Shown here piece by piece: positions 332 to 7,461 of a DNA stretch of 36,907 bases (its first letter is position 1; each line of letters starts with the position of its first letter). A program made the translations under genes and the position numbers. Source of the DNA: Ignavibacteriales bacterium. Its GTDB lineage: Bacteria; Bacteroidota; Ignavibacteria; UBA10030. The DNA lies in NCBI GenBank assembly GCA_026390585.1, contig JAPLFP010000067.1, positions 1 to 36,907 on the forward strand, written 5' to 3'. A model generated the notes under the pieces. That model saw only the letters and a program-made list of their open reading frames with translations. It did not search any database and had not been told where the DNA came from.

Positions 332-388
332 TGAACCTACAACACAATTACCCTTGTGTTAAGCCCTTTCTGTGCATATTGCTCGTTT

Positions 389-409
389 CGTGCAACAAAT
401 GTGCAACAA
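389..409 (+). repeat. Tandem integrase arm-type repeat, left end
   Basis: Two adjacent copies of GTGCAACAA (the second after AAT/AT spacing). The same pair in the same orientation occurs at 7287-7307 near the right end with one mismatch. A pair at each end of the element next to the att cores is what is expected of arm-type binding sites for a tyrosine integrase; binding itself is inferred. Confidence 0.55.
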
Positions 410-625
410 TAACTCCCGTATCTCTCACTTTTCTCCTCTCGCGAAGGTAACGAACCGAAAGACAAAAAACAACCGATCGCTCTCAGGTTATCCTTGCTCG
501 AAATGCAAACAAACGACAAAAATCGATAGTGCTCCGAAGAGTTCCCTTGTTGCGTATCAGACTTGCCAGAGAAGATTGACCGCAGGGGCTTCCTTGCTCG
601 AATTAGGTGTTGTGTAGCGGAGGGT

Positions 626-847
626 CTAACGCTTGGGCGAAACAATCTCACAACAAATGAAATTTAAGTTGTCCGGGTCTACCTCAACGCCGTGTTTATA
701 CTCATAGTCTGCGATTGCTTTTTCTCTGAGCGTGTCCCTTTCAAGCTCGGAGTCTGTTTCGTGAACAACATACATGATATACGGCCCTTCCGTTTCAGGA
801 GAAAATCGCGCTTCGATGTTGGCGATTCTTGTCTCAAGTGTTTTCAT
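626..847 (-). CDS. Small hypothetical protein of the element (73 aa)
   Basis: I do not recognise the family. The protein begins with a short coiled-coil-like heptad stretch (MKTLETRIANIEARF) and is otherwise acidic, with no signal peptide or membrane segment. Its ATG overlaps the TGA of the upstream gene (ATGA at 844-847), so the two are translationally coupled; this is the main evidence that it is real. It is the last gene on the minus strand before the left end of the element. Confidence 0.65.
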   Translation of the reverse strand: MKTLETRIANIEARFSPETEGPYIMYVVHETDSELERDTLREKAIADYEYKHGVEVDPDNLNFICCEIVSPKR

Positions 848-1152
848 ATCTCTTTTCCCCCGGTCTTTGCTTCCAACAATCTGATCCGTTCCTCAAGATC
901 TGCGTCCTTGACAATCTGCACCCACACGCTGAGAAGGTAAGCAAGATCCTTTGCCTCCCGGCCTTCCAACTCCCCCCGCTGAAAGGCAACCAAGATCCGG
1001 GACAATAGCTTTTTTGCGTCCCTCAGATTCTTAACCTTTATTGGCTTTTCTTTCAGTGACAAGGGGGAGTTTGCCGTATTCCTTCTCAGTGTTAGCACCT
1101 TCGGGAGATTTAGCCCTGCATTTTCAGCGGTTTCTTGCGTATTTGCTGTCAT
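844..1152 (-). CDS. Small hypothetical protein of the element (102 aa)
   Basis: Charged, soluble protein of unknown family. The N-terminal 40 residues look disordered; residues about 40-95 are predicted by eye to be helical, with a KNLRDAKKLLSRILVAFQRGELEGREAKDLAYLLSV-like pattern typical of small phage/element proteins, and the C-terminus has a short coiled coil (LEERIRLLEAK). Coupled to the downstream gene by an ATGA overlap. The start codon lies just downstream, on the minus strand, of the tandem repeats at 1225-1380, which may regulate it. Confidence 0.65.
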   Translation of the reverse strand: MTANTQETAENAGLNLPKVLTLRRNTANSPLSLKEKPIKVKNLRDAKKLLSRILVAFQRGELEGREAKDLAYLLSVWVQIVKDADLEERIRLLEAKTGGKEI

Positions 1153-1224
1153 TCTTCTGCCTGAACGTTGCCTTGTGACGTGAGCGCATTTTTAAGGGTT
1201 CCGAAGATGACCCGTAGAGTGTTT

Positions 1225-1380
1225 TCAAGTCCCCTTTTTAGGGACGGAAGATAATTCAAACAACCCCCTTTTTAGGACTTGCAATAATTCAAGCGACCCC
1301 CCCTTTTTAAGGCTTCCTCACCGGTTGTTCAAGGTTGTATAACAACCCCTTTTTAGGGACTGAAGAAAACTCAAGCGCTT
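1225..1380. repeat. Four degenerate ~34-bp tandem repeats with palindromic cores
   Basis: Each unit has the pattern TTCAAG-N4-CCCCTTTTTAGGGAC followed by GAAGATAA-like bases. Cores lie near 1231-1245, 1265-1276, 1297-1312 and 1346-1360. The best copies hold the palindrome CCCT-TTTT-AGGG. The array fills the 218-bp gap between two minus-strand genes. Iterons of a replication origin or operator sites for an element regulator are the likeliest roles; direct evidence is lacking. The spacing and degeneracy rule out CRISPR. Confidence 0.6.
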
Positions 1381-1670
1381 CGCTGCGTTTTGATGTTGAT
1401 TGCGTCTAAGATTTCTTCCAGGGTTGTGACGATGATAAGCCGCCCCTTCCATTTCGAATGAAAGCGTTTCTCCGGCCCTGTGAGTTGCTGCCCGCTTCTT
1501 GGCTGGTTAGGATTCTTCAGCTCAAAGAAGTAATTGCGGCCCTTGTGTCCGATGATGAGGTCAGGAAAGCCCCTGCCAAAAGCGTGAGAGTCGAAGACAC
1601 TCAGGCCCGGTATCTGGTTCAAGGCTCGCATGATTCCGGCTTGGTTGCCGTCCGTTCTACGTGGTCTCAT
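1371..1670 (-). CDS. VRR-NUC domain nuclease (99 aa)
   Basis: Small stand-alone VRR-NUC (PD-(D/E)XK-type) nuclease, common in phages and satellites beside a D5-type primase/helicase. The pattern G-FPDLIIGHKGRNYFFELKNP (residues about 34-54) supplies the metal-binding D and the E-x-K pair of the fold; the length is normal for the family. It likely processes element DNA during replication. The ATG at 1670 overlaps the TGA of an 8-codon ORF (1667-1693) that has a good AAGGAG site, so translation is probably coupled to it. Confidence 0.8.
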   Translation of the reverse strand: MRPRRTDGNQAGIMRALNQIPGLSVFDSHAFGRGFPDLIIGHKGRNYFFELKNPNQPRSGQQLTGPEKRFHSKWKGRLIIVTTLEEILDAINIKTQRSA

Positions 1671-1693
1671 GTTCTGATACCTAACTTTTGCAT
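1667..1693 (-). other. Eight-codon leader ORF in front of the VRR-NUC gene
   Basis: Reads MQKLGIRT and stop. TAAGGAG lies 7 nt before its ATG, and its TGA overlaps the ATG of the nuclease gene. It may serve translational coupling, or be the remnant of an N-terminus displaced by a small indel. The ribosome binding site belongs to a sequence partly repeated at 5601-5639. Confidence 0.4.
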
Positions 1694-1782
1694 CGTCTCG
1701 CTCCTTACTGAATCTCTGCGCCGCTTACGTTTATGGGTCAGACATTTTTGTCCTTGATTGTGTTATTCGAATTCGTTAAGAT

Positions 1783-1800
1783 TCCCGAAACAATTCGGGA
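1783..1800 (+). promoter_or_regulatory. Hairpin overlapping a ribosome binding site
   Basis: TCCCGAA-ACAA-TTCGGGA, a perfect 7-bp stem with a 4-nt loop. The 3' arm includes the first bases of the GGGAGGAG ribosome binding site of the gene starting at 1809. Confidence 0.45.
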
Positions 1801-1808
1801 GGAGTCTC

Positions 1809-1991
1809 ATGGAAATCTTTGTTCTCTTCGTTTTCATTATGCTCTTTGTCGGGGTCGTGTGCGGTTGTTTTTGTCTTTTCATTGCACACGAAAAGAACAG
1901 GGACCGCGCCAGTTGGCTTGTGCTCGGATTCTTTTTCAGTATATTTGCGCTCATAGCAATTGCCGGGTTGCCGATAAAACTAAGGAACTGA
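1809..1991 (+). CDS. Small two-helix membrane protein (60 aa)
   Basis: Two hydrophobic segments (about residues 2-24 and 36-55) joined by a charged loop (HEKNRDRASW) suggest a small inner-membrane protein. The family is not recognised. The ATG at 1809 follows GGGAGGAG by 4 nt; an in-frame ATG at 1758 has no comparable site. It is the only plus-strand gene I accept inside the element. The ribosome binding site is partly contained in a hairpin (1783-1800), so translation may be controlled by RNA structure. Confidence 0.55.
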   Translation: MEIFVLFVFIMLFVGVVCGCFCLFIAHEKNRDRASWLVLGFFFSIFALIAIAGLPIKLRN

Positions 1992-1992
1992 T

Positions 1993-2073
1993 TCATTCCT
2001 GTATCCATTCGACTTCTACCTCAATCCCGCAGCCCTTTGACGTGTGGTTTCGCACAAAGATCTTAGATGCCAT
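1993..2073 (-). CDS. Very small hypothetical protein (26 aa)
   Basis: Reads MASKIFVRNHTSKGCGIEVE and six more residues. GAAGG lies about 6 nt before its ATG, which sits inside the last codons of the preceding small ORF (11-nt overlap, other frame). It has no recognisable family. Compact overlap and a ribosome binding site favour a real gene, but the length makes this uncertain. Confidence 0.35.
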   Translation of the reverse strand: MASKIFVRNHTSKGCGIEVEVEWIQE

Positions 2074-2200
2074 TTTCGCCTTCAATGCTTTGTATGCCTA
2101 ACCTGTTCATCGTCTCAAGAACCTGTTCGTTTGTCATTGCGTCAAAACTATTCTCCCGAAGGTTACTGGAACATGTGGAACATCTGGAGGCTTTTTCCAT
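2063..2200 (-). CDS. Small Cys-containing hypothetical protein (45 aa)
   Basis: Starts MEKASRCSTCSSNLREN, with a CxxC pair encoded by tandem TGTTCCACA-type DNA, and continues with an amphipathic stretch (MTNEQVLETMNRLGIQSIEG). It follows the D5 helicase gene on the same strand by about 45 bp. The DNA behind the CxxC pair is the inverted copy of the last helicase codons. No strong ribosome binding site is visible. Treat as a probable small element gene of unknown role. Confidence 0.35.
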   Translation of the reverse strand: MEKASRCSTCSSNLRENSFDAMTNEQVLETMNRLGIQSIEGENGI

Positions 2201-2268
2201 ATCTTTTCTCTTTGTCTCTCTCGTATAGGAAGTATGTAAAATTGGTCATAGATGTTCCAGGTGTTCCA
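2167..2268. repeat. Inverted repeat across the 3' end of the helicase gene
   Basis: TGGAACATGTGGAACATCT (2167-2185) matches the reverse complement of 2250-2268 at 17 of 19 bases, with a 64-bp spacer. Each arm itself contains two TGGAACA units. The right arm encodes the terminal VEHLEHL of the helicase. Confidence 0.55.
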
Positions 2269-3626
2269 CTGACAGAGAGACACCGCTCCAGAATCGTTTC
2301 TTGCAGGGACCCACTCGAAGCTGAAAGCCCTTTTCCTTCATTCTCTCTTGAAATGCTCTCCAGCTCATCACACCGGATCCGGCCCAAGCCTGATAGGCTT
2401 CATACAAGTCACGGGAGGGGACTTCTCCAGCGAGATTGCAGCACTCACTCACGAATTGAGCTACGGTATCGGACTCTTCGCGATATAGTCCCGTTGCAGC
2501 CTTGACGATATTGGGGACCACAAGCCCCCGGCTTTTCCAATCCAGTAACCCCTCAACGGCCCAATTCAGGATTCCGGGCATTTCCTTTTGAGCATGCGCC
2601 AGTAGTTCACCCATCGGTCTTCGCCCCTCTTCCGGGATTGTGACGGTAAAGGGAATCAGGTGCATGCGTCGCCAGAGTCCGTAGTCCGTGCCGGTGACTA
2701 TTGGTTTATGGTTTCCATACATCCACACCTTATGCGAAGGCTGGAACTCAAAGAAATGACCGTAGAGATGCCGGGCAACGACTGTATCACCTCCAGAAAG
2801 GTCTTTCGTTTTTGATTCGTTGAGTTTCCTTCCTCCTTCGATTTCTGCCAACACAGCCAGACGCACACCGCGGAGCCTTGCAACATCCGCAGGAAGAACA
2901 CAAGGCCCGGTGATCGTGAGGGAGAAACGTATTGGCCTTCAGGTCAAGGATCCCATTTCGCACGTTGAAGAGCCACGGGTCACGATCGAAGTCCGTTGAC
3001 TTGATGCGGATCTTCGCCAGACTCTGAGCAATCGTCAGCGCGTCACAAATCTTCGCCCGGCTTTCACTGACAAGCGCCCACTTTGCCATTGCTTTGCGTT
3101 CGCCTTCCGTCGCCAGATTTTCCGCGTCGCCATACATGCCTCTGAGTGTCCCGGAAATAAGTTCGTTCACTTCTCCCGTCTCATCATACTTCCATTTCGT
3201 GCCATCCCACAGAACCCACTCCCCGCGGGTGTGGTCATATCTCACTTTCGATCCGCACTCCTCTGAAAATCGTTCTGCATTTCCGAGGTCGCTGGTTTGA
3301 AAAGTCAAACGGTCGAACCGGTGGACCTTTAGACGTTCAACCGCCATGCTCCACGAACCATTGAGGGAAATTCCTTCAAAAAGGATTTCAGCGATTGCAT
3401 CGGTCCGACACTGGGGGGCATTGCCTGAGAGGAAGGAGGCCTGAAGTTCAGCATACACTTCCCGAAACTCACGCGTTTGAAAATCATCCTGTTGCAATCC
3501 TTCGAAGACGGTTTTCTTTCTGAAATTCTCATCGTCCACAATCGGCCTCAGCACGTCCCGCTCAAGAGCGCGTCGGTCGGATATGTTGAAGACCTGCAAA
3601 GAATCAGTCACGGCGCTCCTTGCCAT
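2246..3626 (-). pseudogene. D5/P4-type primase-helicase with its ATPase core deleted
   Basis: Should be the replicative helicase of the element. The first open part (from ATG 3626) has a helical DnaB-N-like region (about 1-105) and a D5_N domain (about 113-240, with VRYDHTRGEWVLWDG and DPWLFNVRNGILDL). Family members then continue through about a hundred residues to the Walker A motif. Here the sequence jumps directly, and into another frame, to DVARLRGVRLAVLAE near 2888-2904. The second part (to 2246) keeps the later motifs (LSGGDTVVARHLY; WMYGNHKPIVTGTDYGLWRRM) and a C-terminal winged-helix-like tail. No Walker A is present in any frame at the join. An out-of-frame internal deletion is the simplest reading; a misassembly is possible. 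Confidence 0.8.
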
Positions 3627-3877
3627 TATCGTTCAACCTCCCGGACCCGGTTTCGAGTGAGCCACGCGTCCAGGTCTCCCTTCAGGAAATACAGTCGCTT
3701 TCCGTTTGGTTTGTAATGGACTATCTCGCTTTGTGAGGTGAGGCGGTAGAGCGTTTGACGCGAGCAATGCAAATAGACGGCAGCCTCAGCAAGTGTGAAA
3801 GGCGCTGGCTGTTGCGCTCCGAGTAGCTCTTCGATTTTTGTCAGCTTGGTGAGAACCTCATCAAATTGCTTTCCCAT
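3626..3877 (-). CDS. HTH_17 (excisionase/MerR-like) DNA-binding protein, 83 aa
   Basis: A short N-terminal coiled coil (residues 5-20) is followed by a winged-helix excisionase-type domain: FTLAEAAVYLHCSRQTLYRL (27-46), then KPNGKRLYFLKGDLDAWL (56-73). Such proteins act as excisionases or regulators in integrative elements. Its stop overlaps the helicase ATG by one base (TAATG). Between its ribosome binding site (GAGGTG) and any upstream sequence stands a complete terminator-like hairpin plus U-tract, leaving no room for a promoter, so it must be expressed by read-through. Confidence 0.8.
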   Translation of the reverse strand: MGKQFDEVLTKLTKIEELLGAQQPAPFTLAEAAVYLHCSRQTLYRLTSQSEIVHYKPNGKRLYFLKGDLDAWLTRNRVREVER

Positions 3878-3888
3878 CGTAACACCTC

Positions 3889-3981
3889 AAAAAAAAGTCC
3901 CATCAGCGTCGCTTGGGGACGACACCGATGAGACAATGAATTTTTTCCCCAAGTGAAGACAGGTTGTAAGACTCTTCACTT
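3889..3981 (-). promoter_or_regulatory. Putative transcription attenuator upstream of the HTH gene
   Basis: On the minus strand a 15-bp stem (3920-3934 with 3897-3911, three G-U pairs) with loop UCCCCAAG is followed by eight U (3896-3889) and then directly by the ribosome binding site and ATG 3877. Just upstream lies a second hairpin, AAGTGAAGA/TCTTCACTT (3951-3959/3973-3981). CUUGGGGA (3953-3946), overlapping that hairpin's end, is exactly complementary to the terminator loop, so a pseudoknot or alternative pairing is possible. Confidence 0.65.
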
Positions 3982-4059
3982 AAAGCGGGGAGGTTCAATT
4001 CTGCTTAGTTCTCATCAAATAAGTTCAACATTCATAGGGGTGTTTTGTGTTTTGCTGTT

Positions 4060-4827
4060 TCAATTCTCCTCTGATTCTGCTTCTGGGGTTAGGTTGGGAT
4101 CTAAGAATGGCCTTCCCCCTCTTTTTCGATCGGACCCTTGAACTTGGCTATTCTCATCAATCTCCTCTTGACCGGCAGAACGTTTCACCCGTTTCGTACA
4201 TTCGCCCTGAAGGTCTTCGACGTGTTTGTATACAGCGACCCAAAAATCCTTCGAGGCTTCGACTCTTGCGAGATTCTTTCGCTTTTTGATTTCTTTTCCC
4301 AGGTCTAACAAGAATGTCGCCTCTCTCAACTCCCGCTGCCACTTTGAACGAGATACATTGCTGTTGTTTGCCAAATCAGTGAGACTCGGTTCGGCGTTCC
4401 GAGTCATTCTGCAGACTTCAGCATACCCACTCAGCAAGGGTTTGGCCTTGATCCGTTTTCTTTCTGCCGCTTCTTCCGAGCTTGCGACAAGCTTCCGAAG
4501 GGTTTCGCTCTCGGCAAATCTTTTTCTCATTTCGTTATAGACAGTTGTCACCCTTTCATCAATGTATGGCCAAATGCCTTCCGCCTTGCAGCGGTTCTCT
4601 TCGACAATGGCCAACCGCTCAAGCTCGCGATTGTCTGCCCTCCTTGCGTCCTGAAATAGCTTCTGAAGGGCGTCATGTCGTTGTTGGTATTCTGGTGAGT
4701 TAATGTTCTGTCCTCTCCAGACAACGTTCGGCGTATCGCTTGCCATCTGTGCTACAAGCCTCCATCCGCTGGGAGGCACAGTACCCCGCTCCCATACTTT
4801 TTTATTTGGTGTCCATTTCCCTTTCAT
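4060..4827 (-). CDS. Hydrophilic hypothetical protein of the element (255 aa)
   Basis: No family recognised. The protein is highly charged, without signal peptide or membrane segment. Residues about 50-135 look like long helices (RRADNRELERLAIVEENR; KRFAESETLRKLVASSEE), residues 140-175 could include a small DNA-binding helix pair (PSLTDLANNSNVSRSKWQ), and the tail is disordered and acidic. Like the HTH gene downstream, its start (GTGAGGTAACG then ATG) lies immediately behind a terminator-like structure. Gene order puts it first in the helicase operon, which suggests an early regulatory or replication-accessory role; that is inference. Confidence 0.7.
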   Translation of the reverse strand: MKGKWTPNKKVWERGTVPPSGWRLVAQMASDTPNVVWRGQNINSPEYQQRHDALQKLFQDARRADNRELERLAIVEENRCKAEGIWPYIDERVTTVYNEMRKRFAESETLRKLVASSEEAAERKRIKAKPLLSGYAEVCRMTRNAEPSLTDLANNSNVSRSKWQRELREATFLLDLGKEIKKRKNLARVEASKDFWVAVYKHVEDLQGECTKRVKRSAGQEEIDENSQVQGSDRKRGGRPFLDPNLTPEAESEEN

Positions 4828-4840
4828 GTCGTTACCTCAC

Positions 4841-4922
4841 AAAAAACAAAGATGCTTCCCTCCGCGTCCAAGCCTGTATGAGAGGCCCACCGTTTCGAGA
4901 ACGGTGACGGAGAGAAGCATCT
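4841..4922 (-). promoter_or_regulatory. Putative transcription attenuator with branched stem upstream of the 255-aa gene
   Basis: On the minus strand the outer arms 4908-4922 and 4850-4864 pair over 15 bp with one G-U. They enclose a 7-bp hairpin (4888-4906, CACCGTT/AACGGTG) and a small GCCT/AGGC hairpin (4872-4886), a three-way junction. The outer stem runs straight into a U-rich tract (4849-4841), then GTGAGG and ATG 4827. As at 3889-3981, no promoter fits between the U-tract and the gene. Confidence 0.65.
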
Positions 4923-4944
4923 GGTTTGTTGTTCATGCTCATTT

Positions 4945-4989
4945 GGACGTTCTGCATTTCAAAATCTAAAGCCGCGGTAGCCTGTTGAC
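4945..4989. repeat. Cargo-boundary repeat, copy 1 (copy of integrase 3' end)
   Basis: A 45-bp segment matching 6156-6200, which spans the integrase stop codon. On the minus strand it can encode the same ending VNRLPRL-stop, with synonymous changes. The left half, ending CTCATTT on the minus-strand downstream side, is shared with copy 2 (5494-5517). Confidence 0.65.
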
Positions 4990-4990
4990 A

Positions 4991-5476
4991 TCAGTATACT
5001 TCAAAACCCCAAGCGTCATATTCTGCCAGCTTTTTGGCGCTTTGTTTGTCATAGATTTTGACCCATTTCCCATTGAGACCTTTCGACTGACAATACACAG
5101 CCATGTTTGTGGCGAACCATTTCTTGGTCTTTGCGTCCATGTTATTCCAGGTAATCGGTTCGATGTATACCTTGTTGATTCTGAGATCAACGTCTAGGAG
5201 GCCGTCTCGAGTACCCTGTTCGACCAATGCAATGAAACCTCTGTCGAGTTTAGGGGCTGGACTCAGGCTTGTAACGCTTCCGGTCCTCTTACCCGAAAGT
5301 AAAAGTATTCCCATCAGCATTACCAACACAAAAAAGATACCAAGGCCAATAAGAATCTTCTTGGTCCACGAAGTGCGCTGAGCGGGCTTTGGTTCGGACC
5401 GCTGAAACTCGGTTCCACAATGGGAACAGTATCTTGACCCGTCTAGGTTATCGCGATTGCATTTGGGGCAAATCAT
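4991..5476 (-). CDS. Zinc-ribbon single-pass membrane protein (161 aa)
   Basis: An N-terminal zinc ribbon (C3-x2-C6 and C17-x2-C20) is followed by a basic linker, one transmembrane helix (about 39-62) and an approximately 95-residue C-terminal domain rich in charged and aromatic residues, probably outside the membrane. The C-terminal domain is not recognised. A good ribosome binding site (GAAGGAG) precedes the ATG. It lies in the part of the element between the replication genes and the integrase, bordered on both sides by related short repeats, which suggests cargo rather than core function. Confidence 0.75.
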   Translation of the reverse strand: MICPKCNRDNLDGSRYCSHCGTEFQRSEPKPAQRTSWTKKILIGLGIFFVLVMLMGILLLSGKRTGSVTSLSPAPKLDRGFIALVEQGTRDGLLDVDLRINKVYIEPITWNNMDAKTKKWFATNMAVYCQSKGLNGKWVKIYDKQSAKKLAEYDAWGFEVY

Positions 5477-5493
5477 CGAAAATTCTCCTTCTC

Positions 5494-5517
5494 ATTTCGG
5501 ACGTTCTGTATTTCAAA
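5494..5517. repeat. Cargo-boundary repeat, copy 2 (partial)
   Basis: Shares CTCATTT-GGACGTTCTGYATTTCAAA with copy 1 at 4939-4963 (one inserted C, one substitution). It lies in the leader of the zinc-ribbon gene, as copy 1 lies in the leader of the 255-aa gene. Confidence 0.55.
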
Positions 5518-5636
5518 GCTGCGAAGGTTACGGCGGTTTCTCTTTGTGCGCTTCCTTTCTCAGTTCGCGTCATCAAATCCAAGAGCCTGCTTCTTTGTCC
5601 CGTTGTCTCGCTCCTTACCCAATCTTTGATACTGCC

Positions 5637-6116
5637 TTAGAATACATCTTTCTTCTGAATGAATTGGGACAAGCTTTCAACGATCTCGGAAAACTTGTGA
5701 TGCGCTGGATGGTGGTACGCAACTATGTCTCGAAATGGCTGACGGGCAGTAGCCCCAGCAGGAATGTACTCCAGATTCACGAATCGTATGCGAACTTTTT
5801 CATCGCGAATATCTATGTTCATCGTGAAAGCGATCTCTACCTCAATCGATATCGCGGCTTCCACCTTCATCCGTGACATACCGTTGCCGATTATTGACCC
5901 ATTTTCTTTGTTCTGGTACTCAACCACAGCTTTTGCAGAGCGAAACGTGTTCGCAAGCCATTTCAATGTCATTTCATAGGCTTGTTGCTTCTGCACACCG
6001 GGGAGGCTCAAGATAAACTCGTGATTCATCTCCTCCTTTGTGGCTTCCCTCGAACCGGCGCAACCGGCGAGAAACAGCAAGAACAAAAATGGAAGTGACC
6101 TAATGAGTGCTTTCAT
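5637..6116 (-). CDS. DUF4468-type lipoprotein (159 aa)
   Basis: A type II signal peptide ends in LFLAG-C19, so it should be a lipid-anchored envelope protein. The mature part fits the DUF4468 pattern (TLKWLANTFRSAKAVVEYQNKENGSIIGNG, then IEVEIAFTMNIDIRDEKVRIRF), a TBP-like fold of unknown function found mainly in Bacteroidota. The length is normal. GAGGAGG precedes the ATG. Its position beside the integrase and between boundary repeats marks it as cargo that could change the host surface. Confidence 0.75.
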   Translation of the reverse strand: MKALIRSLPFLFLLFLAGCAGSREATKEEMNHEFILSLPGVQKQQAYEMTLKWLANTFRSAKAVVEYQNKENGSIIGNGMSRMKVEAAISIEVEIAFTMNIDIRDEKVRIRFVNLEYIPAGATARQPFRDIVAYHHPAHHKFSEIVESLSQFIQKKDVF

Positions 6117-6155
6117 AATTCATCCTCCTCAGTTGTCTGTTTTGATGTCCATGTT

Positions 6156-6200
6156 AAACGTTCTATGAATCAGAATCTAAAGCCGGGGCAGCCTGTTCAC
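6156..6200. repeat. Cargo-boundary repeat, copy 3 (integrase 3' end)
   Basis: Covers the last integrase codons, its TAG and about 20 bp beyond. Aligns over 45 bp with 4945-4989. AGAACGT (minus strand) is common to all three copies. Confidence 0.6.
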
Positions 6201-7247
6201 TGCGCGCCGTTTCTTGTCATCAATGATTTGACCATATACCTGGGTCTGTGAGATGCTTTTGTGTCCGAGAAGCTTTGATACCACAAAAATATCAACGCCC
6301 GAAGTAAGGGCAAGGGTGGCAAATGAGTGCCTCCCTTTATGGAACGTCAACGGCTTGTCGATACCTGCCACCTTCGCCCAATGCTTCAAATCCTTGTTGA
6401 CCCCTGAAGCGGAGGGTAACAAAAAAACAGAATTGGCCGGGATCTCACGCTGAAGGTTCGGGCTGGGCTTGGCCTTCTTCTGCTTCGCCAGAATTTGCAG
6501 AGCTTGTGCTGAGAGGGGGAATCGTTCCGGCGCTCCTGTTTTCTTCTGTGTGAATTCAAGGTATTCGCCCTTGATTTTGTCCCACGTCAAACGATCCACG
6601 TCGCTATACCGCAAGCCTGAGAAGCAACTGAAGAGGAAAGCCTGCTTCACCTGATCGTTACCGCATGGAGTCTTTGCCAACTTGCGGATTTCCTTGATTG
6701 ACAGATGCACCGGGAGAGTTTCTTTCCTCTGAACTACCGTCCCGTTTGCTGGATTGCGAGGCAGAATGTTGTCCTTTACAGCTTGGTTCAACGCTGTTTT
6801 GATTCGGGATAGATAGGTATGCGCTGAGTTTGGGCTTTTGACGTGGTTGAGTAAGTAGGATTTGAAGTTGTCCAATAGCTGAGGCGTCACGTTGCCAAAG
6901 ACGATGCCCTCGCCGGCGAAGTCAGCAAAGTGCCCAATGGCACACTCCCATGAGGCTTTCGTGTTCGGTTTGGTTCGTTCGTCTGCCTGAGTGTGGAGGT
7001 ATTTGATGAAACTCGCCTTTCGTTTATGCGTCCCGCTGAGGCCGTGTTGGTCGGCCTGAAAGTCAAGTTGTCGCTTGGCTGCAATCTCTTCTGCCTGTTT
7101 CAACGTCTCACGGTTCTGGAAGCGGTCATTCTTGTGCAGGAAAAGATTGAGCGATTCCGTCCAGCGGTTTTCTTTGTCGCGGTAGATGTCAAGGTAGAGC
7201 TGAATACGCTTGGAAGGAAGTTCGCGCTTGCGGAGTTTGACGCTCAT
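6177..7247 (-). CDS. int: Tyrosine recombinase / integrase (356 aa)
   Basis: Integrates and excises the element at the 17-bp core. Layout is that of Bacteroidota-type phage integrases: N-terminal arm-binding region (about 1-75), SAM-like core-binding domain (about 80-170), then the catalytic domain with R213 (FSGLRYSD), K235/K236, H303-x2-R306 (HKGRH), H329 (LGHKS) and the nucleophile Y338. All catalytic residues are present, so the enzyme should work. The ATG at 7247 is chosen because GGAGG lies 7 nt upstream; an upstream in-frame ATG (7307) would cover the arm repeats and has no such site. It is the first gene inside the right end. Confidence 0.93.
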   Translation of the reverse strand: MSVKLRKRELPSKRIQLYLDIYRDKENRWTESLNLFLHKNDRFQNRETLKQAEEIAAKRQLDFQADQHGLSGTHKRKASFIKYLHTQADERTKPNTKASWECAIGHFADFAGEGIVFGNVTPQLLDNFKSYLLNHVKSPNSAHTYLSRIKTALNQAVKDNILPRNPANGTVVQRKETLPVHLSIKEIRKLAKTPCGNDQVKQAFLFSCFSGLRYSDVDRLTWDKIKGEYLEFTQKKTGAPERFPLSAQALQILAKQKKAKPSPNLQREIPANSVFLLPSASGVNKDLKHWAKVAGIDKPLTFHKGRHSFATLALTSGVDIFVVSKLLGHKSISQTQVYGQIIDDKKRRAVNRLPRL

Positions 7248-7275
7248 TTTGGACCTCCAAAAGGTGTGCATTTTG

Positions 7276-7304
7276 AAGATACAAAACGTGCAACAAATAT
7301 GCAA
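7276..7304 (-). promoter_or_regulatory. Candidate sigma-70 promoter of the integrase, overlapping arm repeats
   Basis: On the minus strand TTGCAT (7304-7299), 17-nt spacer, TATCTT (7281-7276). It overlaps the right arm-type repeat (7287-7307), so integrase binding would repress its own promoter. Prediction by eye. Confidence 0.4.
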
Positions 7305-7307
7305 CAA
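7287..7307 (+). repeat. Tandem integrase arm-type repeat, right end
   Basis: Same double GTGCAACAA/ATGCAACAA unit as at 389-409, same orientation. Confidence 0.55.
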
Positions 7308-7431: not shown

Positions 7432-7448
7432 GAATATATGCGATAAAT
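7432..7448. repeat. Right attachment repeat (attR core)
   Basis: GAATATATGCGATAAAT, identical to the left copy at 315-331. Confidence 0.85.
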
Positions 7449-7461
7449 CAGGAACTATCAA
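7433..7461 (-). promoter_or_regulatory. Candidate host promoter spanning attR and reading into the element
   Basis: On the minus strand TTGATA (7461-7456), 17-nt spacer, TATATT (7438-7433). The -10 lies in the att core and the -35 in host DNA. In the unoccupied site the same promoter would drive udk; in the integrated state it points at the integrase. Confidence 0.5.

Follow-up and report, generated by a model that had tools for sequence, protein, structure and literature searches.

RNA structures in the leaders of mobile-element genes are described in three systems that come closest to the locus analyzed here. In P4, the CI RNA is described as pairing with the seqA and seqC sequences and thereby blocking the expression of replication genes (PMC4825925). 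The ribosome-binding site of IS200 tnpA is reported to be sequestered by a 5' stem-loop (PMC12594629), while the structure in the 5' untranslated region (5'-UTR) of tnp in ISPpu9 has been proposed to block tnp translation and may be opened by a small RNA (sRNA) (PMC8450116). We analyzed a stretch of 36,907 nucleotides (nt) from an Ignavibacteriales bacterium (assembly GCA_026390585.1, contig JAPLFP010000067.1, positions 1 to 36,907), hereafter the window; the genome assembly that contains this contig has 379 contigs in all. It carries a 6.9-kb integrative element, read from the minus strand, with two structured leaders: leader A before an excisionase-like gene for a helix-turn-helix (HTH) protein of 83 amino acids (aa), and leader B before a gene for a 255-aa protein.

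We read leader A, with moderate confidence and from sequence evidence, as an RNA barrier against read-through expression that would stand at the junction between two parts of the element. The integration part would comprise the integrase gene (int), the cargo and the 255-aa gene, and the excision/replication part the excisionase-like HTH gene and the primase gene. The initial annotation had placed two terminator-like structures, one of them branched, directly before the start codons of the HTH and 255-aa genes, and both descriptions were borne out. Hairpin A joins the arms 3920-3934 and 3897-3911 by 12 Watson-Crick and three G-U pairs with no A-C mismatch, has a minimum free energy (MFE) of -26.7, and is separated from the AUG of the HTH gene (3877) by 11 nt (GAGGUGUUACG). 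Structure B is the branched one: its outer stem (4908-4922 with 4850-4864; 14 Watson-Crick pairs and one G-U) encloses two inner hairpins, and the AUG of the 255-aa gene (4827) follows after 13 nt. Neither structure was equaled in stability by any of 200 shuffles. A G+C-rich stem with a U tract directly after it, the hallmark of intrinsic terminators, is present in both cases, as the stem of A with its U8 and as the 15-pair stem of B with UUGUUUUUUG. No Rfam family matched within the window at the gathering score, and a reading as a riboswitch or other described RNA family was rejected on that basis. The coordinates of these and other features are collected in Table 1, where SD denotes the Shine-Dalgarno sequence.

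Table 1. Features of the integrative element and its leaders, with positions in the window.
Feature	Position	Strand	Basis and details
Terminator-like hairpin A	3897-3934	-	Fold z -5.5; stem 15-16 bp; loop UCCCCAAG at 3919-3912
U8 tract of hairpin A	3889-3896	-	Sequence; consensus terminator scan
SD of HTH gene, GAGGU	3884-3888	-	MFE fold of 3880-3995; may pair with ACCUC at 3994-3990
CUUGGGGA, exact 8-nt complement of loop A	3946-3953	-	P 0.0004
Upstream hairpin AAGUGAAGA/UCUUCACUU of leader A, without U tract	3951-3981	-	Fold of 3880-3995
Branched terminator-like structure B, U6 at 4846-4841	4841-4922	-	Fold z -5.2
CGUCCAA, complement of B junction UUGGACG (4871-4865)	4943-4949	-	7 nt; P 0.012
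83-aa HTH_17 protein, excisionase-like	3626-3877	-	Pfam HTH_17 2.3e-14; PHROG 66 8.5e-7
255-aa gene	4060-4827	-	No family at its cut-off (Pfam, PHROG)
D5/P4-type primase-helicase	2246-3626	-	D5_N 6.4e-23, Pox_D5 3.3e-6; pieces 3626-2787 and 2866-2246
Tyrosine integrase	6177-7307	-	Pfam Phage_integrase 1.4e-20
Sigma-70-like match upstream of int, TTGATA-17-TATATT	7433-7461	-	Consensus match only
Left att-like repeat (21 nt)	389-409	.	Repeat search; 95% identical to 7287-7307
Right att-like repeat (21 nt)	7287-7307	.	Repeat search

The position of these structures is unusual for the genome. Compact terminator-like hairpins were defined by a folding free energy (dG) <= -14, <= -0.40 per nt, and at least six T in eight positions, and a background of 250,640 bases was taken from 20 contigs of the same genome. 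Six compact entries were found in the window, and three of them (A once and B twice, hence two structures) are followed by an SD and a start codon within 30 nt, whereas this holds for none of the 33 compact entries in the background; one of the latter (L138, 7884) has an SD and a start codon at 32 nt. When the compactness filter was replaced by dG <= -15, an SD and start followed 3 of the 64 window entries and 7 of the 389 background entries; because of these unfiltered counts, the contrast between window and background rests on stem quality as well as on position. A simple consensus scan of the first 8 kb gave 10 terminator-like sites versus 9.2 in shuffles, which is about equal. Structure B is missing from that scan, in which only loops of 3-8 nt are allowed.

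The arrangement of a hairpin and a T tract before an SD and a start codon was also scanned in 102 related loci (1.016 Mb in total; handles beginning with L); the primase loci numbered 93, and from the genome scan the best 80 of 143 relatives were retained. The closest relative of the element is found in 'Ignavibacteriae bacterium isolate fen_1276' (L019, the same as L026) and has the gene order integrase, 241-aa gene, HTH gene and intact primase gene. The leader of its HTH gene reads GGACCATCG-ACGA-CGATGGTCC, TTATGTTTTCT and then ATGGAGGTGCTA before a GTG start (position 5666); a 9-bp hairpin and UUAUGUUUUCU precede the SD and the GUG, and the SD itself is paired with a probability of 0.98 (duplex p 0.013). 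In a Pirellula metagenome-assembled genome (L033), the order is integrase, 225-aa gene, hairpin with TATTTTTATTT, 94-aa HTH-like gene and D5 primase. On the Singulisphaera plasmid pSINAC02 (L027; Singulisphaera acidiphila DSM 18658), a hairpin of -48.6 kcal precedes an 81-aa gene upstream of the primase gene; the 81-aa protein looks HTH-like by eye, but no Pfam family matches it. The last case comes from looser rules applied to 70 of the 93 primase loci, under which hairpins were also seen before many mechanically called open reading frames (ORFs) that are not HTH-like. Some other integrase-HTH-replication elements thus share the arrangement of leader A at the corresponding place in the operon.

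Position and recurrence bear on the best of the alternative explanations, in which A and B are plain, unregulated terminators that end the transcripts of the 255-aa and zinc-ribbon genes, respectively, and the downstream genes are expressed by leakage or from promoters overlapping the hairpins. Structures A and B follow the ends of the preceding genes by 125 and 68 nt, as terminators of those genes might, and a hairpin with a T tract also stands before other genes in L106 and L022. We nevertheless consider this explanation unlikely, since none of the 33 compact hairpins in 250 kb lies within 30 nt of an SD and start, and the same position recurs before excisionase-like genes of other elements.

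The 94-aa protein of the Pirellula element belongs to the family DUF1580 and also matches PHROG 66, and a search of 196 genomes from its order gave relatives at E <= 1e-8 in 51 of them. Altogether 87 DUF1580 places, 86 of them from this search, yielded 71 usable non-redundant leaders, after one unusable leader, 13 leaders with no SD motif and two near-identical ones were dropped. Of the 33 loci tested from these 87 places, 25 have an integrase match in the part of the upstream flank that was retrieved, and an upstream ORF is present at 66 of 86 loci, its stop codon being located at a median of 111 nt before the DUF1580 start. Among 20 downstream ORFs viewed, several resemble primase, DnaB, Toprim or ParB-like proteins by eye, that of L033 being the only one tested by profile. 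DUF1580 is likely to be an excisionase-like gene that heads a replication module. In L150, L153 and L155, it has genes of the integrase side on one flank, while the genes downstream of it vary (by eye, DnaB-like in L150 and primase-like in L153), which suggests an interchangeable module. A term search of the open-licence literature found no paper on DUF1580.

Two structural signals are enriched in the DUF1580 leaders. A hairpin with a T tract that starts 10-48 nt before the start codon was found in 9 of the 71 leaders. In a control set of 154 genes, drawn from 400 kb of planctomycete genomes of the same group, 3 have one (p 0.0019), as do 2 of 528 mixed control genes (p 1.3e-7); control starts are mechanical ORF calls rather than annotated genes. 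The SD also pairs with sequence upstream of it, at a median z of -1.34 in the 71 leaders as compared to 0.07 in the 154 controls (p 7e-13). The probability of a paired SD exceeds 0.8 in 35 leaders of 71 versus 19 controls of 154, the enrichment persists within the G+C band of 0.35-0.6, and against 491 mixed controls the mean probability is 0.85 (30 DUF1580 leaders) versus 0.48. In L147 (the same as L033), L150, L155, L163 and L190, as well as in L026, the stem that masks the SD encloses a terminator-like hairpin; L147 and L150 both keep an outer stem of 7-8 bp, although its sequences differ (GUUGCAC/GUGCAAC and CACACUC/GAGUGUG). Many of the planctomycete counterparts thus seem to rely on masking of the SD, and not on a terminator, as their barrier.

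The pairing pattern was compared between the strands. Wherever the arms differ from perfect complementarity, the coding strand has G-U, in three of three cases in A and two of two in B. The opposite strand of leader A (3880-3995) folds with a z of -2.4 compared to -5.5, while for B the values are -5.1 and -5.2; taken together, the strand evidence points to RNA for A but hardly discriminates for B. The gene-side U tract does not count as independent evidence because the scan required it. Among DUF1580 SD stems scoring >= 6 (54 of 71), and counted in DUF1580 stems alone, G-U occurs 40 times versus 20 for A-C (p 0.013), and the arms are at least 20 nt apart in 22 of the 40 SD stems viewed. These figures speak against the idea that the HTH protein binds the inverted repeats as DNA, at operators or sites of another kind, and that they are not RNA devices: the downstream protein is indeed DNA-binding, and L026 and L033 have perfect 9-bp palindromes, but the exclusively G-U mismatches on the coding strand in A and B, the G-U excess in the planctomycete SD stems and the wide spacing of their arms make this improbable.

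An exact complement of the loop of A just upstream, pointed out in the initial annotation, is confirmed over 8 nt (3953 to 3946; P 0.0004). Such a complement was found in 0.04% of 5000 dinucleotide shuffles for the 125 nt upstream and in 0.22% for the nearest 60 nt. The pseudoknot proposed from it is sterically unlikely on geometric reasoning if all eight loop bases are used, because no unpaired base would remain to cross the second stem. As for an antiterminator, the MFE and centroid folds keep the terminator stem in spite of this complement. Structure B has a 7-nt complement of its own, absent from the initial annotation, which may be incidental because its repeat also precedes the zinc-ribbon gene, with no hairpin listed there. 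A P4-like circuit, in which a small antisense RNA of the element would pair with the leader and force premature termination of the replication genes, could draw on the 8-nt complement, the D5/P4-type primase and the expected passage of transcription through the leader, but is very improbable given that the loop of A and its complement (TCCCCAAG and CTTGGGGA) occur once each on the minus strand of 389-7307 and in the same leader, so that there is no third site, that no Rfam match at the gathering score and no separate sRNA gene were recognized, and that the gene order of P4 differs from that of the element.

Several observations weigh against leader A as an RNA barrier. Within its own order, it has one counterpart (L026); the hairpin is absent in five other same-order HTH relatives (L017, L018, L020, L021, L022), and none was seen by eye in six weaker matches (L011-L016), for which the start used in folding was set mechanically from the match. 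It occurs in 3 of 18 HTH-like genes near primases, comprising two profile matches and 16 genes picked by eye from 75 of 91 candidate proteins that were generated from 47 of the 93 primase loci. Within this set, L036, L064 and L075 have SD-masking stems instead (duplex p 0.003-0.007), and nothing clear was found in the rest; the three stems (L036 4685-4738, L064 1072-1134, L075 5100-5173) belong to HTH/AlpA leaders upstream of D5 primases in other phyla. The hairpin arrangement is also not confined to excisionase-like genes, because 12 other genes in the 1.016 Mb have it (L021, L022, L045, L064, L065, L071, L091, L101, L106 twice, L108 and L112). The difference in SD pairing is gone when the DUF1580 leaders are compared with 37 flanking planctomycete genes only (p 0.24); this conflict with the 154-gene control stands, and we give more weight to the latter. 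Pairwise comparison of the DUF1580 leaders gave 69 two-sided changes versus 39-54 for slid pairings, and the share of changed pairs kept was 0.28 versus 0.36-0.40, both from heavily gapped alignments. No close homologues of leaders A and B were found for a covariation analysis, and the link to DUF1580 is one of position and weak protein similarity, not of leader sequence. In the window itself, the SD of leader A is paired with a probability of 0.75, but the duplex shuffle p is 0.42 (upstream 95 nt only); the fold possibly indicates weak SD masking beside the terminator-like hairpin. Finally, the primase gene is broken, and the window copy may no longer be used.

With leader A taken as a barrier, upstream transcripts, for instance from an int promoter or by read-through from the host, would form hairpin A with its U8, few of them would reach the HTH gene, and the element would stay quiet. 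Expression of the HTH gene would then need transcripts that pass or avoid the hairpin; candidate ways of opening are antitermination, refolding with the upstream CUUGGGGA, and a start site inside the leader. The nearest sigma-70-like match upstream is the one before int, and the stretch holding it has three such matches versus 6.6 in shuffles, fewer than shuffled sequence. On the minus strand from 5000 to 3877, the consensus scan found no sigma-70-like match. The Bacteroidota-type promoter motif TAnnTTTG is likewise absent from that interval, where only a relaxed TAGATTT occurs at 4968; inside hairpin A, no promoter was recognized.

Before the 255-aa gene, leader B could act as a further barrier peculiar to this element, and the relatives give no support for it: no counterpart was found among them, 86 planctomycete DUF1580 genes have 66 upstream ORFs without a single B-like hairpin before them, and the L019 gene that corresponds to the 255-aa gene is leaderless, its start overlapping the stop codon of the integrase gene. 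The attenuation circuit suggested in the initial annotation is retained in part. Support exists for terminator-like structures directly before start codons, for their RNA nature, which the G-U pairs favor, and for the recurrence of leader A, while the two-step design and P4-like control by a small RNA are not supported.

Many planctomycete counterparts would exert the barrier by SD masking, sometimes with a nested terminator-like hairpin. Extending the proposal, we tentatively suggest, as a possibility well short of our reading of leader A, that an RNA lock conserved in position and free of sequence constraint is common to integrative elements of two or more phyla (Ignavibacteria-type hosts and planctomycetes), in which it would control the excisionase-like gene at the head of the replication module. 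With a terminator-like hairpin enclosed by an SD-masking stem, a single RNA would then block both transcription and translation from read-through transcripts, and an element- or helper-specific key would be needed. If so, no larger set of such locks would be known than that of the DUF1580 genes. We did not find the arrangement described in the open-licence literature, as judged by titles and abstracts. A barrier at a fixed position, recognizable by its place in the operon without sequence similarity, would make it possible to test how non-model integrative elements switch from silence to excision and replication.

The element is bounded by two 21-nt repeats that are 95% identical and encodes, in order, the integrase, a DUF4468 protein, a zinc-ribbon protein, the 255-aa protein, the 83-aa HTH_17 protein, the D5/P4-type primase-helicase, an endonuclease-like protein and two small ORFs. 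Its assignment to integrative elements or phage satellites follows from the integrase, the D5 primase (broken) and the att-like repeats. The primase gene lies in two frames and lacks an internal stretch, the one with the ATP-binding motif, as compared to the intact 574-aa primase of L019; because of this deletion, the element copy is probably defective. PHROG 66, matched by the HTH protein, is annotated as 'excisionase and transcriptional regulator'. Neither the HTH protein nor the 255-aa gene had a match in a search of viral contigs, and the latter was found in its own genome only (1 of 395 genomes). No structural gene was detected among 10 element ORFs compared with Pfam, six of which were also compared with PHROGs.

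Further observations concern the repeats and the relatives. The att-like core (window 386-409 and 7287-7307) is common, at 95-100% identity, to an element of a different family from the same order (L022; 7151-7173 and 11927-11949), whose integrase is 47% identical and which has an HUH-type replication gene in place of the primase gene. A gene at the far end of that element (L022, 11605-11607, minus strand) is preceded at about 30 nt by a hairpin of -39.5 kcal with a U tract, a further terminator-like structure near a start codon. An integrase, the same HTH family and an HUH-type replication protein are combined in an inovirus-like style in L020 (2569-5336), L021 (7626-10276) and L022 (7208-10116), the HUH type being assigned by profile in L022 (REP_ORF2-G2P) and by resemblance in L020 and L021. 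A repeat of the int end and adjoining sequence (6158-6200) recurs before leader B (4947-4989), with a shorter part before the zinc-ribbon gene (5496-5517), and looks as if the cargo genes arrived by duplication of the int-end junction. Between two element genes (1226-1377), a 37-nt sequence whose core is CCCCTTTTTAGG-like occurs in three imperfect direct copies, which could be origin iterons.

P4, like the element, has a D5/P4-type primase. The predicted stop at hairpin A recalls P4 immunity by the CI RNA, which is described as premature transcription termination before the replication genes (PMC4825925). In contrast to the processed antisense RNA that pairs with seqA and seqC in that account, only one complement in one leader is seen here, and, judged by sequence, any resemblance to P4 would be functional at most. 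The IS200 tnpA leader has, in addition to the stem-loop at its ribosome-binding site, a second, terminator-like stem directed against outside transcription. The planctomycete set resembles IS200 more closely than P4. IS200 differs in that the gene is a transposase gene there and an excisionase-like gene here, that no antisense RNA is known here, and that SD masking in the window is at most weakly indicated (duplex p 0.42 for A); no similarity between the leaders was noticed, although no search aimed at it was made. ISPpu9 likewise has a transposase gene, with two known sRNAs, and its description as available to us (PMC8450116) does not include a U-tract hairpin at the start codon; what it has in common with leader A is a 5'-UTR structure that stands before a mobility gene and is proposed to block its expression.
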